Shown here: piece by piece, positions 8,037 through 12,363 of the stretch
Numbering within the stretch: position 1 is the stretch's first letter
Layout of the letters: each line of letters starts with the position of its first letter
NCBI GenBank assembly: GCA_016928395.1
Contig: JAFGKV010000154.1
Coordinates: 1-28,537, forward strand
Direction of reading: 5' to 3'
From: Candidatus Fermentibacterota bacterium
GTDB lineage: Bacteria; JAFGKV01
Length of the DNA: 28,537 nucleotides
Program-made: the position numbers and the translations under genes
The notes under the pieces: model-generated
What the model saw: the letters and a program-made list of their open reading frames with translations, nothing else
Databases searched by the model: none
Told to the model about the DNA's origin: nothing

Positions 8037-8468
8037 GGGTACCACCTCATTGTGAAGCGCCGCCCCTGTCTCTCCCGAAGAACGTCGTATGTGCGCACCG
8101 TAGCACACCACGCCGGAAAATGACGATGCGGAGGAGGATCTATTCAGTATCAATCGCTCAATACCGTATCAAGAAGTCCACTTGTCAACGATCATCACTG
8201 TATTTCGGTTGTTGTGGATCGATTCTGTTTATCCGAAGATCCGGCAGACACGGAGAACCCGTCTTCTTGCGCATAGACCGACTTTTGGCATTCTAACGAA
8301 ACGCAGATAACCTACATCAAGATAGAGACGAGATCCATGGAGGTATCGTACGGGGGATGCATTCACACGGTGATAGCGCGGGTGCCTACGGTGCTCTGTC
8401 GTGACTCACAATGCCCGCTATCGTGGAGTCGTCTGCAAGCCCTCGGCCCACTCAAGACTCGAAAGGTA
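8037..8468. other. Divergent intergenic region upstream of the isomerase-fold gene and the ATP-grasp operon
   Basis: No credible gene is seen here. On the minus strand a perfect TTGACA (complement of 8183-8188) is a candidate -35 for the isomerase-fold gene, but no good -10 sits 16-18 bp downstream. Two direct copies of GTATCAA (8147-8153 and 8166-8172) lie 19 bp apart between that box and the gene, about two helical turns, and could be operator half-sites. A bulged hairpin is possible at 8235-8266 (GAAGA/TCTTC plus CGG/CCG). The stretch is more A+T-rich than its neighbours between about 8130 and 8330, as expected of regulatory DNA. Confidence 0.4.
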
Positions 8469-8496
8469 TTGACATAGGTAACAGGCATGGTAAACT
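8469..8496 (+). promoter_or_regulatory. Sigma70-type promoter of the ATP-grasp/GNAT/aminomutase operon
   Basis: A perfect -35 TTGACA (8469-8474) is followed after 16 bp by TAAACT (8491-8496, 4 of 6 to TATAAT). The predicted transcript starts near 8503, giving a leader of about 110 nt before the GTG at 8612. Because this promoter lies inside the longer open frame that begins at 8411, it argues against that upstream start. Confidence 0.6.
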
Positions 8497-8599
8497 AGAG
8501 GCGATTAAAGAGGAGTTGACGGCGTTGCGAGAGCCGCTGCTGCCCCACCGGGCGAAGAGTCTCCGCGGCCCCTCAGACTGCCGTCCTGCTCAAGAAGAC

Positions 8600-8603
8600 G
8601 GAG
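8600..8603 (+). promoter_or_regulatory. Shine-Dalgarno deciding the GTG start of the first ATP-grasp gene
   Basis: GGAG lies 8 nt before GTG 8612. A competing purine-rich site, AAAGAGGAG at 8507-8515, stands 9 nt before an in-frame TTG at 8525 and would add 29 residues. That site would be almost at the 5' end of the predicted transcript. I prefer 8612 because the conserved fold (RLALAYNAKP) begins there. Confidence 0.45.
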
Positions 8604-8611
8604 ACTCTTCG

Positions 8612-9697
8612 GTGCGCCTTGCCCTTGCGTATAATGCCAAACCAACTGCCAGAAGCGCCATCGAGGCTGTACACCCTGAAACGGTCCTCGACGAGGAGGA
8701 GGAACCTCCGCCGCTGACTGCGGGCGTCGGTAGCAACGACGACGCCTACGCCGAATGGGATGATGCGCCCACAATTCTGGCGCTGGCGGGGGCTCTTGCC
8801 AATCAATTCGATGTTTCACTGGTTGAAGCTGATGCACGCTTCCCTTCCCGCGTACAACGCCTCAAGCCGGACATTGTGTTCAATGTTGCCGAAGGAATGG
8901 TCGGTCCGGCCCGGGAGGCCCACGTGCCCGCAATCCTGGAGATGCTGCGCATCCCGTATAGCGGGTCAGACTCTCTCACCCTGGCGGTGTGCCTCCACAA
9001 GGCGTGGGCAAATGTTATCCTCGCTGCCAACGGTGTGCCCACACCGCGCCATCGAGTGATTGAAGGCATTACTGATCTTGATAGCCCGTGGGAGATATTG
9101 TTTCCGATTATCCTCAAGCCGCTGCACGAAGGATCCAGCAAGGGCATTCGAGATGATCAGGTGGTGGGCTCCCTCTTCGATTTGAGGGTGAGGGCCGCGC
9201 GCCTTCTCCGGGATTACCATCAGCCCGTTCTGGCCGAGCAGTTCCTTCAGGGCCGCGAGTTCACCGTGGCAATTTTAGGGAATCCTCCTGACGTGCGAGT
9301 ACTGCCGCCGGTGGAACTGCGGTTCGATGCCTTTCCGCCGGGCACAACCCCGATCTACTCCTGGGAGGCGAAGTGGTTATGGGATCGACCCGATTCTCCG
9401 CTTGACGTGTTCCAATGCCCCGCCGGCCTGTCTTTTGCCCAGCAGGCGGAGATCGAACAAGTCTGTCAGGCTACGGCGAGGATTCTGCGCATCAGGGATT
9501 GGGCGCGAATCGACGTTCGCATGGATGCGGCCGGGGTGGTACACGTCATGGAAGTCAATCCCCTCCCGGGGATGCTGCCCGATCCCGACGCTCATTCCTG
9601 CTATCCCAAAGCCGCCCGAGCCGCCGGGATGACTTATGACGACGTGGTCTTGGCTGTGGTCGACGCGGCGTGCCGACGATGGGGGCTTCGCTCATGA
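8612..9697 (+). CDS. D-alanine-D-alanine ligase-like ATP-grasp protein (first of two)
   Basis: ATP-grasp ligases join a carboxylate to an amine or thiol through an acyl-phosphate. From GTG 8612 the product has 361 residues. Ddl-family landmarks are PDIVFNVAEGMVGPAREAHV, ILEMLRIPYSGSDSLT, HKAWANVILAANGVPTP, FPIILKPLHEGSSKGI (ATP-binding lysine loop) and VLAEQFLQGREFTV. The metal-binding end is RIDVRMDAAG followed by VMEVNPLPGM, close to the EiNtlPGmT end of true Ddl. An insertion around residues 25-48 (VLDEEEEPPPLTAG) is unusually acidic and proline-rich. Start alternatives are ATG 8411 and TTG 8525. The stop overlaps the next ATP-grasp start as ATGA. The family is often annotated as D-Ala-D-Ala ligase, but the context (a second ATP-grasp, GNAT, lysine aminomutase) suggests another substrate than cell-wall D-Ala. 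Confidence 0.88.
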   Translation: MRLALAYNAKPTARSAIEAVHPETVLDEEEEPPPLTAGVGSNDDAYAEWDDAPTILALAGALANQFDVSLVEADARFPSRVQRLKPDIVFNVAEGMVGPAREAHVPAILEMLRIPYSGSDSLTLAVCLHKAWANVILAANGVPTPRHRVIEGITDLDSPWEILFPIILKPLHEGSSKGIRDDQVVGSLFDLRVRAARLLRDYHQPVLAEQFLQGREFTVAILGNPPDVRVLPPVELRFDAFPPGTTPIYSWEAKWLWDRPDSPLDVFQCPAGLSFAQQAEIEQVCQATARILRIRDWARIDVRMDAAGVVHVMEVNPLPGMLPDPDAHSCYPKAARAAGMTYDDVVLAVVDAACRRWGLRS

Positions 9698-10698
9698 GAC
9701 CGCAGGTAGTCCTGCTCTTCAATGAACCAGTGAATACCGAGGAACCGTCTGAGGTAGGAGTCATCGGTGAAGCCGAGGATATTGTCTCAGCACTGGAATC
9801 CAAAGGACACGCCGTGGAATCAAGGCCAGTCTCGCGCCAGACGCTGCTTCCGACCCTGAGTGAGTTGGAAGACCGCCGGGAATCAGTGGTCGTGTTCAAC
9901 CTGTGCGAAGGACTCAACGGTCATTCCCACCACGAGCCGCTGCTGGCGGGTCTCTTGGAGCTTCACAGGCTCCGCTTCACGGGGAGTCCCTCATCGACGC
10001 TCTCGTGGGCACTGGATAAGCGCGTTGCCAAGGCCATTCTTGGCTTCGCGGGAGTCCGCACTCCGGGAGCACAGGCGTTCTGCACCGCAGGCTCCATGGA
10101 CGAGATAAAGGAGTTCGCTCTGCCGGCCATCGTGAAGCCTGTCCGAGAAGACGGCAGCCTGGGCATCACCGCCGACTCGGTGGTGCATACCGCAGATGAA
10201 CTTCATGCCCGCATTCGCTGGGTCCTGGAGACCTATCGCCAGCCAGCTTTGGTGGAAGGATATCTGACGGGCCGGGAATTCAACATGTCTATCCTGGGCG
10301 AAGGAGACGACGCCAGACTTCTGCCGGTGGAGGAGATCCTGTTTGAGGGGTATTCGCCGGGAGAACCGCGCCTGCTCTCCTACGACGCCAAGTGGCGCGT
10401 GGGAAGCCATGATGATGTCCGTACCATCCCGAAATGCCCCGCCGCAGTGGATGGCAACCTGCGTGATGCGATGGAATCGCTGGCACTCACCACGTACCAA
10501 GCTTTCGGATGCAGGGACTATGCCCGAATCGACATCAGACTCGACGGCGGTGGAACACCCCATGTGCTGGATGTGAACCCAAACCCCGATATCTCACGGG
10601 TGGCCGGCATGGCCCTGGCGGTCACACAATCGGGCATGTCCTATGAAGAGTTTGTGGACAGTGTCGTGGAGGCAGCATGGAACCGAACGCCGTACTAG
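9694..10698 (+). CDS. ATP-grasp protein, D-Ala-D-Ala ligase-like (second of two)
   Basis: The start at ATG 9694 is chosen because it overlaps the upstream TGA as ATGA and gives a clean beta-strand MRPQVVLLFNEP; an earlier ATG at 9670 is less likely. The product has 334 residues. Shared landmarks with its neighbour are VVFNLCEGLNGHSHHEP, LHRLRFTGSPSSTLSWALDK, GVRTPGAQAF, PAIVKPVREDGSLGI and LVEGYLTGREFNM. The C-terminal metal and substrate loop differs: RIDIRLDGGGTPHVLDVNPN then PDISRVAG, with Asp in place of Glu before VNP and NPD in place of the Ddl-like LPGM. It is therefore a diverged paralogue and probably binds a different acceptor. A cytoplasmic ligase is likely. GNAT starts 22 nt before its stop. 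Confidence 0.87.
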   Translation: MRPQVVLLFNEPVNTEEPSEVGVIGEAEDIVSALESKGHAVESRPVSRQTLLPTLSELEDRRESVVVFNLCEGLNGHSHHEPLLAGLLELHRLRFTGSPSSTLSWALDKRVAKAILGFAGVRTPGAQAFCTAGSMDEIKEFALPAIVKPVREDGSLGITADSVVHTADELHARIRWVLETYRQPALVEGYLTGREFNMSILGEGDDARLLPVEEILFEGYSPGEPRLLSYDAKWRVGSHDDVRTIPKCPAAVDGNLRDAMESLALTTYQAFGCRDYARIDIRLDGGGTPHVLDVNPNPDISRVAGMALAVTQSGMSYEEFVDSVVEAAWNRTPY

Positions 10699-11168
10699 GC
10701 CCTTTGCACTCTGACCTTGTCGAGGACGTCGTGGCGATGGTAAGGGACACGGGCGTGTTCCGTCCCTGCGAGGTAGACGTGGCCGAGGAACTGCTCGAAG
10801 CGGCTGCCCTGGAGGGAGACGAGTCGGGTTACCTCGTACGGGTTGCTCTGGTGCAGGACAAGGTGGCGGGGTATGCATGCTGGGGCGCCACGCCGTGCAC
10901 GGAAGGCACCTTCGACCTGTACTGGATCGCCGTATCACCCGCCTATGGTCGACGCGGCGTCGCCGGGGCGCTCCTAAATGAGGTCGAGCAGGATGTAGTC
11001 TCACGCGGAGGCCGGCTGCTCATCGCCGAGACATCGAGCACCGAGCCGTACGAGGCTGCGCGTTCGTTTTACGTTCGAAGGGGCTTCCGGGAGGAGGCCC
11101 GGATTCCCGACTTCTATAAGCCGGGAGATGCGAAAGTGGTTTTCGTCAAAACTCTCTTGCAAAGCTAG
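10677..11168 (+). CDS. GNAT-family N-acetyltransferase
   Basis: A small enzyme (163 residues) of the GCN5-related fold, expected to transfer an acyl group from acyl-CoA to an amine. The CoA-binding motif A is clear at DLYWIAVSPAYGRRGVAGAL (about residues 81-100), with the pyrophosphate-loop pattern RRGVAGAL. The closing strand-helix is YEAARSFYVRRGFREEARI. The ATG at 10677 sits behind GTGGAGG and overlaps the end of the second ATP-grasp gene by 22 nt. The aminomutase gene follows 25 nt later. The known beta-lysine acetyltransferase AblB, partner of lysine 2,3-aminomutase in N-epsilon-acetyl-beta-lysine synthesis, is about 270 residues, so this shorter protein may be an analogue and not a true AblB. 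Substrate unknown. Confidence 0.9.
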   Translation: MEPNAVLGPLHSDLVEDVVAMVRDTGVFRPCEVDVAEELLEAAALEGDESGYLVRVALVQDKVAGYACWGATPCTEGTFDLYWIAVSPAYGRRGVAGALLNEVEQDVVSRGGRLLIAETSSTEPYEAARSFYVRRGFREEARIPDFYKPGDAKVVFVKTLLQS

Positions 11169-11193
11169 AGAGTCAGGAGGGAGTGGAGGAACG

Positions 11194-12315
11194 ATGGAAC
11201 TCTGGCAGGAGTTCCTTGCCTCGGCGATTCGTACGCCCGCACAGCTCAGGCGATACTTCCCTGAGATCGATGTGGCGGCATTGGAGCGGGTTGCCGAGGT
11301 GTATCCTATGTGTGTCACCCCGTACTATCTGGGCCTTGTCCAGCGGATTGACGATCCCATAGCGAGACAGTGTATACCTGATCCCGTCGAGCTGGATTCG
11401 TTCGGTCTGGTGGCTGACCCGCTGGCGGAAGAGAGCATGAGCCCCGTGCCCTGCGTCGTGCATCGGTACCCGGATCGCGCGCTGTTTTTGGTCTCATCCC
11501 AGTGCGCCATGTACTGCCGGTTTTGCACGAGAAAGCGAAAGGTGGGCACGGACTGGGCCATCACCGATGAGTTGCGTCGCGAGGGCCTCGCGTACATTGC
11601 GCGAACCCCCGAAATCCGTGATGTGGTGGTCTCCGGGGGGGATCCGCTCATGCTGTCGGACGGCCTCATCGAAGGCGTTCTGAGCGGTCTACGGCGAATC
11701 CCCCACGTGGAGGTCATCCGCCTTGGCACTCGGACGCCCTGCACCCTGCCCCAGCGGATCACGCCTCGGCTAGTGCGCATGTTGCGGAAGTACCATCCGC
11801 TCTACGTGAACACGCATTTCGAGCACCCCAGGGAACTCACACCGGATGCGGTTCGGGCATTGACGCGTCTTGCGGATGCCGGCATTCCTCTGGGGAATCA
11901 GTCCGTGCTCCTGCGCGGCGTGAACGATGACCCCGCCGTGTTCCTGGAACTCAACAGAAGACTGCTGAGCGCGCGGGTGAAGCCCTACTACATGTTCCAA
12001 GCCGATCTCGTAGACGGGACCGCCCATTTCTGCACCCCGATTGAGACCGGCCTTGATGTGATACGCGGTCTCCGAGGCCACACGTCGGGGATGGCTGTTC
12101 CCCATTTCGTCATCGACTCGCCGGGAGGCGGCGGCAAGATTCCGATCCTCCCCCAGGAGTACGTCCGTCGGGAGGGGCGGCAACTCATTCTTCGGAACTA
12201 CCGTGGGCAGATCCACCTCTACTCGGATCGCACCGCAGAGCCGAACCCGTGTGAGGAGATCGCCGGGATGCCTGACCTGATCGAAGCCTTTGAGCCCTTG
12301 GCGGCCATAGGCTAG
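11194..12315 (+). CDS. Lysine 2,3-aminomutase-family radical SAM enzyme (KamA-like)
   Basis: Radical SAM/PLP enzymes of this family move the alpha-amino group of lysine to the beta-carbon. ATG 11194 follows GGAGGAA closely; product 373 residues. The iron-sulfur motif is CAMYCRFCTRKR (Cys104, Cys108, Cys111), with Arg113 at the position that contacts the substrate carboxylate. SGGDPLML (148-155) is the SAM-binding GGDP block. VIDSPGGGGK carries the PLP lysine (Lys315). The two aspartates that grip the lysine side-chain amine in clostridial KAM (Asp293, Asp330) align with Asp271 (QADLVDG) and Asp308, which favours lysine over glutamate as substrate. The C-terminal Cys-rich zinc segment of clostridial KAM is absent, as in shorter EpmB/KamA forms. 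The substrate assignment is inference from alignment by eye. Confidence 0.9.
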   Translation: MELWQEFLASAIRTPAQLRRYFPEIDVAALERVAEVYPMCVTPYYLGLVQRIDDPIARQCIPDPVELDSFGLVADPLAEESMSPVPCVVHRYPDRALFLVSSQCAMYCRFCTRKRKVGTDWAITDELRREGLAYIARTPEIRDVVVSGGDPLMLSDGLIEGVLSGLRRIPHVEVIRLGTRTPCTLPQRITPRLVRMLRKYHPLYVNTHFEHPRELTPDAVRALTRLADAGIPLGNQSVLLRGVNDDPAVFLELNRRLLSARVKPYYMFQADLVDGTAHFCTPIETGLDVIRGLRGHTSGMAVPHFVIDSPGGGGKIPILPQEYVRREGRQLILRNYRGQIHLYSDRTAEPNPCEEIAGMPDLIEAFEPLAAIG

Positions 12316-12327
12316 ACCTTTTCAGAT

Positions 12328-12363
12328 CACAGGGCGCCCGAACGTTTGTTCCGACGCCCTGTG
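12328..12363 (+). terminator. Strong hairpin closing the ATP-grasp/aminomutase operon
   Basis: Arms CACAGGGCG (12328-12336) and CGCCCTGTG (12355-12363) pair perfectly over 9 bp. Inside the loop GAAC (12340-12343) can pair with GTTC (12348-12351), giving a two-tier hairpin 13 nt after the stop of the aminomutase gene. No T-run follows on the plus strand, so intrinsic termination may be inefficient; it could instead stabilise the mRNA 3' end. Confidence 0.6.

Follow-up and report, generated by a model that had tools for sequence, protein, structure and literature searches.

A conserved operon of two ATP-grasp ligases, a GNAT acyltransferase and a KamA-family aminomutase that probably makes a small acyl-capped beta-lysine peptide

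The chemistry of each of the four enzyme families encoded in the operon described here is established. In the pathway for the osmolyte N-acetylglutaminylglutamine amide (NAGGN), a GNAT and an ATP-grasp enzyme yield an acetylated dipeptide, and the operons of secondary metabolism that contain ATP-grasp peptide ligases are said to have been surveyed by Iyer et al. in 2009. The operon analyzed in this work lies in a 28,537-nucleotide stretch of DNA (hereafter, the window), which corresponds to contig C195 in a draft genome of 4.79 Mb. It shares the combination of a GNAT with ATP-grasp enzymes with the NAGGN pathway but differs from it in the presence of KamA and in the lack of an asparagine-synthase-like amidotransferase among its four genes. 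The ATP-grasp peptide-ligase operons, which follow a related logic (PMC2922099, PMC4431377), also link ligases, a GNAT and an amino-acid-modifying enzyme and are predicted to produce a capped small peptide; the present module likewise keeps its ligases linked across genomes to an amino-acid-modifying enzyme, here KamA, and to a capping enzyme. The AblA/AblB pathway for the osmolyte N-epsilon-acetyl-beta-lysine (Pfluger et al. 2003, as cited in PMC3543383) resembles the window in that a gene for a lysine 2,3-aminomutase-type enzyme adjoins an acetyltransferase gene, whereas the window operon has two additional ATP-grasp ligases and a GNAT that is not AblB. A search of open papers, which did not cover the 2009 survey, yielded no description of the exact four-gene set. 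The operon is real and well conserved, the literature searched offers no explanation for it, and it represents a variant of ATP-grasp peptide-metabolite operons already known.

The four adjacent genes form one operon on the forward strand: ligase A (8612-9697; Pfam Dala_Dala_lig_C, 3.6e-28), ligase B (9694-10698 from an ATG, with a possible alternative GTG start at 9670; same Pfam domain, 1.5e-26), the GNAT acyltransferase (10677-11168; Pfam Acetyltransf_1, 9.7e-12) and the KamA-family radical SAM aminomutase of the lysine 2,3-aminomutase (LAM) type (11194-12315). The junctions given in the preliminary description, an ATGA at 9694-9697, a 22-nt overlap at 10677-10698 and a 25-nt gap at 11169-11193, were all found. 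As all junctions are either overlaps or 25 nt long, there is no room for a precursor-peptide gene, as would be expected of a graspetide locus, in the interior of the operon. The open reading frame of gene A as called extends from 8411 to 9697, but its ATG at 8411 precedes the -35 box of the putative promoter; the homology begins at the GTG at 8612, which is preceded, 8 nt upstream, by GGAG (8600-8603), so that this GTG, rather than the ATG, is most likely the start. The operon is flanked by a divergent 450-aa open reading frame without a Pfam match on one side, and by an SH3-domain gene followed by a LytB/IspH-like gene on the other. The same downstream neighbours occur in Candidatus Eisenbacteria MAG Prado127 (locus L003), the nearest named relative, which belongs to the same genus as the window and is 70% identical to it in ligase A. 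Because the flanking genes are separate and L003 retains the downstream ones, the operon can be regarded as self-contained, as first proposed.

Ligases A and B match the C-terminal ATP-grasp domain of the D-Ala-D-Ala ligase (Ddl) family in Pfam, and share with the Ddl/Van ligases the ATP-grasp fold, the ATP/Mg residues and the overall profile. The best matches of both are Ddl-family profiles and folds, which raises the question of whether they are ordinary or resistance-type D-Ala-D-X ligases in a cell-wall-related operon. However, both proteins fall well short of the cut-offs of these families, scoring 162 (A) and 126 (B) bits against 243 for NF002378, and 128 and 108 bits against 246 for TIGR01205, and the genome encodes its own Ddl elsewhere (C162), which scores 306 bits, above the cut-off. 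Alignment further showed that the AKY of the Ddl omega-loop is AKW in both proteins and that the C-terminal SLVP signature is replaced by other residues; A retains EGSS and the omega-loop lysine, and B has EDGS in place of EGSS. A quick tree of 53 sequences, built by maximum likelihood, separated A (23 sequences; SH-aLRT support 85), B (26; 90) and Ddl (4; 100) into three groups, so A and B belong to two clades of their own with altered omega-loop and carboxylate-binding motifs. The identification of A and B as ordinary Ddl was accordingly rejected, and we consider a D-Ala-D-X role extremely improbable. The model of B matches Ddl in a Foldseek search, at low model quality (pLDDT 64.5, and 52 for A, both built from three-row alignments and too weak for judging the pockets). 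Single B-like genes with other neighbours account for the rhizobial plasmid ATP-grasp genes, which are not this module.

The KamA protein aligns along its length with lysine 2,3-aminomutase (2a5h, E = 5.5e-111) and, in LAM numbering, retains the CxxxCxxC cluster cysteines, the PLP lysine (Lys337) and the equivalents of Asp293 and Asp330, the two aspartates taken to hold the side chain of the substrate lysine in LAM. The preliminary assignment as a lysine 2,3-aminomutase thus agrees with the substrate residues and is a prediction made below the equivalog cut-off: the protein scores 432.6 bits against the AblA equivalog TIGR03820, under its cut-off of 525.4, and passes the cut-off of the broader KamA subfamily (277 vs 199). 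As its score does not reach the equivalog cut-off of any of the three models (lysine, glutamate and arginine), and as Tyr290 is replaced by Phe, the substrate might be a different amino acid, such as arginine or an already ligated lysine, in which case free beta-lysine would not be an intermediate. The retention of both aspartates and the top score with the lysine model make this very unlikely. For comparison, a KamA paralogue in the same genome (C169) has Lys and Asn at the two aspartate positions and therefore resembles the glutamate type.

The families are co-conserved rather than scattered, the pattern on which the initial pathway idea hinged. In one set of 386 genomes, the GNAT type was found in 26 and KamA in 101, and the A-type ligase in 66, an upper figure given that the A profile also catches some B proteins and larger fused ligases. 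All three types occur together in 24 of the 386 genomes (20 families), compared to 1.2 expected if they were independent, and the pairwise associations are strong by Fisher tests that ignore phylogeny (GNAT-A, p = 2e-20; GNAT-KamA, 2e-13; A-KamA, 2e-15). The complete set of four lies together in 15 genomes from 13 families, not all of them independent because L048 and L051 come from one genus, as do L003 and the window. Two orders were observed: A-B-GNAT-KamA in 8 loci (the window, L003, L042, L043, L044, L045, L048 and L051) and KamA-A-B-GNAT in 7 (L069, L070, L071, L073, L079, L081 and L086), with an HDAC gene in L073 and a gap in L086 between KamA and A.

Other fetched loci show A-B-KamA, A-KamA or B-GNAT arrangements, and the pairs that are frequently kept are KamA beside A and B beside GNAT. 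In genome G189, KamA+A and B+GNAT are on different contigs (L047 and L078), and in L069, B and GNAT are fused in a single 600-aa open reading frame, a fusion reminiscent of the NAGGN pathway. The recurrence of the two pairs, the fusion and the split support one pathway composed of two half-modules. The module is not rigid: in five loci (L046, L056, L098, L004 and L038), A and KamA occur without B and GNAT nearby, or A-B-GNAT occur without an adjoining KamA; KamA is not adjacent in KSB1 (L004) and G172 (L038), the latter genome encoding a KamA elsewhere. Its distribution is also patchy, since at the thresholds applied all three types are missing from G002, a genome of the same family as the window.

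These patterns bear on the possibility that the operon is a variant of the AblA/AblB osmolyte pathway, the ligases being bystanders or making other use of the precursor. In favour of this reading, the best matches of KamA are the AblA model and LAM, and a GNAT is encoded next to it. However, this GNAT barely matches the AblB model (15.8 bits against a cut-off of 205.1); AblB is missing from all 15 cluster genomes tested, with control genomes positive in the same search; and among the 26 genomes with the GNAT type, the ligases are present in 25 and KamA in 24, so that the GNAT is tied to the ligases as tightly as to the aminomutase, in addition to being fused to B in L069. AblB identity was therefore rejected, and the osmolyte reading as a whole appears rather improbable. 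The closest solved relative of the GNAT is PDB 2r7h (E = 8.7e-50), the name of which, "putative D-alanine N-acetyltransferase", is the depositors' prediction; a literature search on the function of 2r7h found no paper. Related GNATs were also found alone.

Taken together, the co-conservation of the families, the distinctness of the ligases from Ddl and the lysine-type residues of KamA partly support the pathway outlined in the preliminary description, which withstood both of the refuting conditions named there. Its link to the osmolyte is no more than an analogy, as this GNAT differs from AblB and the cluster genomes tested lack an AblB. The operon is probably a dedicated module for a small, acyl-capped peptide that contains beta-lysine, and the acylation of beta-lysine and its coupling through two ATP-dependent reactions are a good inference. 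KamA would convert L-lysine to beta-lysine; A and B, as Ddl-fold carboxylate-amine ligases, would form one amide bond each through an acyl-phosphate, yielding a di- or tripeptide with beta-lysine; and the GNAT would transfer an acyl group, most likely acetyl, to a free amine on the substrate or product of B. The recurring half-modules suggest that KamA supplies A and that the GNAT partners B. The enzyme families, their catalytic and substrate motifs, the structure of the operon and its broad co-conservation are observed; the substrates, the order of the steps, the product and its role in this scheme are those we infer.

The accessory neighbours in other genomes, each rare, fit amine or diamino-acid chemistry. 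L070 and L073 encode an HDAC-family protein with a GNAT-type N-terminus that is closest to acetylpolyamine amidohydrolases; in L038, L041 and L042, a related third protein is weakly similar to ATP-grasp enzymes; upstream in L038, a pyruvoyl-type arginine decarboxylase and an agmatinase were identified by eye; and on a Thioflavicoccus plasmid, a B-like ligase and KamA are located beside 2,3-diaminopropionate genes. An alternative is that the ligases attach beta-lysine, or a peptide containing it, to a macromolecule, such as the peptidoglycan stem, a surface polymer or a protein, for example, EF-P. Beta-lysine is known on EF-P, the genome encodes a GenX/EpmA above the cut-off, and in one related cluster (L056) an LPG-synthase-like aminoacyltransferase adjoins KamA. 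Nevertheless, EpmA and another lysine-type KamA (C331) are encoded elsewhere in the genome, neither A nor B resembles EpmA or Mur ligases, and no cell-wall or EF-P gene recurs in the sampled clusters, so we consider attachment to a macromolecule unlikely. As for the preferred small peptide, exporter and resistance genes were not seen to recur beside the sampled clusters, which mildly favours an intracellular metabolite; most likely, it would be soluble and act as a stress or compatible solute, a signal or a cofactor-like compound. The adjacency of the four genes in two orders across 13 families, with split halves elsewhere, is strong evidence for one shared product which, once identified, would be a common but unseen bacterial metabolite. 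Its identification would also clarify the role of two ligase clades whose members would be annotated by similarity as D-Ala-D-Ala ligases, a label that is linked to antibiotic resistance as well.

Upstream of gene A, the promoter noticed earlier, a sigma-70-like candidate site defined by its match to the consensus, is located on the forward strand at 8469-8496 (TTGACA at 8469, 16 nt, and TAAACT at 8491-8496, with the TG of an extended -10 element; 10 of the 12 consensus bases), and the 6-kb region contains 3 sites of this quality compared to 1.4 expected from shuffles. Its TTGACA is kept in L003. The 5' leader (8497-8611, forward strand) contains a feature absent from the preliminary description, a perfect 13-bp inverted repeat (8553-8565/8599-8611), the stem of which takes in the GGAG that serves as the ribosome-binding site of gene A. 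In a comparison of two nearly identical copies, a 57-nt block (8554-8610) is identical between the window and L003, the aligned region being 68% identical overall, and 2000 permutations of the alignment columns yielded no identical run over 40. The upstream reading frames of the two copies differ by a 4-nt gap, so a common leader peptide is unlikely and the leader is likely conserved as a nucleotide-level element. Among the 386 genomes, the block was found only in those of the window and its genus-mate (G000 and G001), apart from one weak 21-nt match; it has no Rfam match, and in 9 other loci inspected by eye, no convincing similar hairpin was seen upstream of A. The overall stability of the 144-nt and 67-nt folds is unremarkable (z = -0.4 and -1.4, respectively), and the case for a hairpin accordingly rests on the perfect stem and its conservation. 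Our hypothesis is that this hairpin, by covering the ribosome-binding site, might gate the translation of gene A.

A broader proposal, which we put forward tentatively and with considerable doubt, is that these genes represent an undescribed but widespread pathway in which exchangeable units, KamA+A to make and couple beta-lysine and B+GNAT to extend and cap it, would produce acylated beta-lysyl peptides of a new class. A linked enzyme resembling acetylpolyamine deacetylases might remove the acyl group in some lineages and, in the genus of the window, translation might be gated by the leader hairpin.

Downstream of the operon, the strong hairpin reported at its end is located at 12328-12363 on the forward strand, with 16-nt arms, and its stability stands out against shuffled sequences (z = -4.8; 0 of 200 shuffles). 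Because it has no T-tract, and no equivalent was found in L003, this hairpin is not a canonical intrinsic terminator. The window and L003 also share a second identical run, of 51 nt, over the start of kamA (11175-11225).

Upstream of the gene for ligase A, the first of the two Ddl-like ATP-grasp enzymes, the leader (window positions 8553-8611) contains a perfect 13-bp inverted repeat that spans the ribosome-binding site and lies within a 57-nt block identical in sequence in L003, the locus from a member of the same genus, to which this block and repeat are restricted among 386 genomes, apart from one weak 21-nt match. Another run identical in L003, of 51 nt (11175-11225), crosses the GNAT-KamA junction into the first kamA codons.

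The genome that contains the window also encodes a KamA paralogue of 639 aa (L105:4717-6636), in which the lysine-binding positions (Asp293/Asp330 in LAM numbering) are occupied by Lys/Asn, and which is therefore glutamate-aminomutase-like.

Several proteins in other genomes combine domains in a single chain. Two Ddl-like ATP-grasp units are present in one protein of 953 aa (L049:4723-7584) and in one of 880 aa (L050:5008-7650), and a methyltransferase domain is joined to a Ddl-like ATP-grasp domain in a 655-aa protein (L089:3782-5749); ORFs of similar size in several other genomes may belong to the same methyltransferase/ATP-grasp family. Within or beside the cluster, a GNAT-like N-terminus is fused to an acetylpolyamine-amidohydrolase-like HDAC domain (L070:3079-4812; L073:7246-8991). 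In three genomes, the cluster is adjoined by mutually related proteins sharing an AWEWEYD motif (L038:3634-4560; L041:3520-4419; L042:3657-4583), with weak similarity to ATP-grasp and, in the two scanned, no Pfam matches. A Card1-like CARF/endonuclease protein is encoded immediately after the operon in one genome (L045:10759-11841), a placement that is probably due to chance.

On two rhizobial plasmids (L066, L067), ATP-grasp genes resembling ligase B stand alone, with no annotated KamA or GNAT in the neighbourhood; in the vicinity of the L067 gene, there are transporter and peptide-uptake genes.
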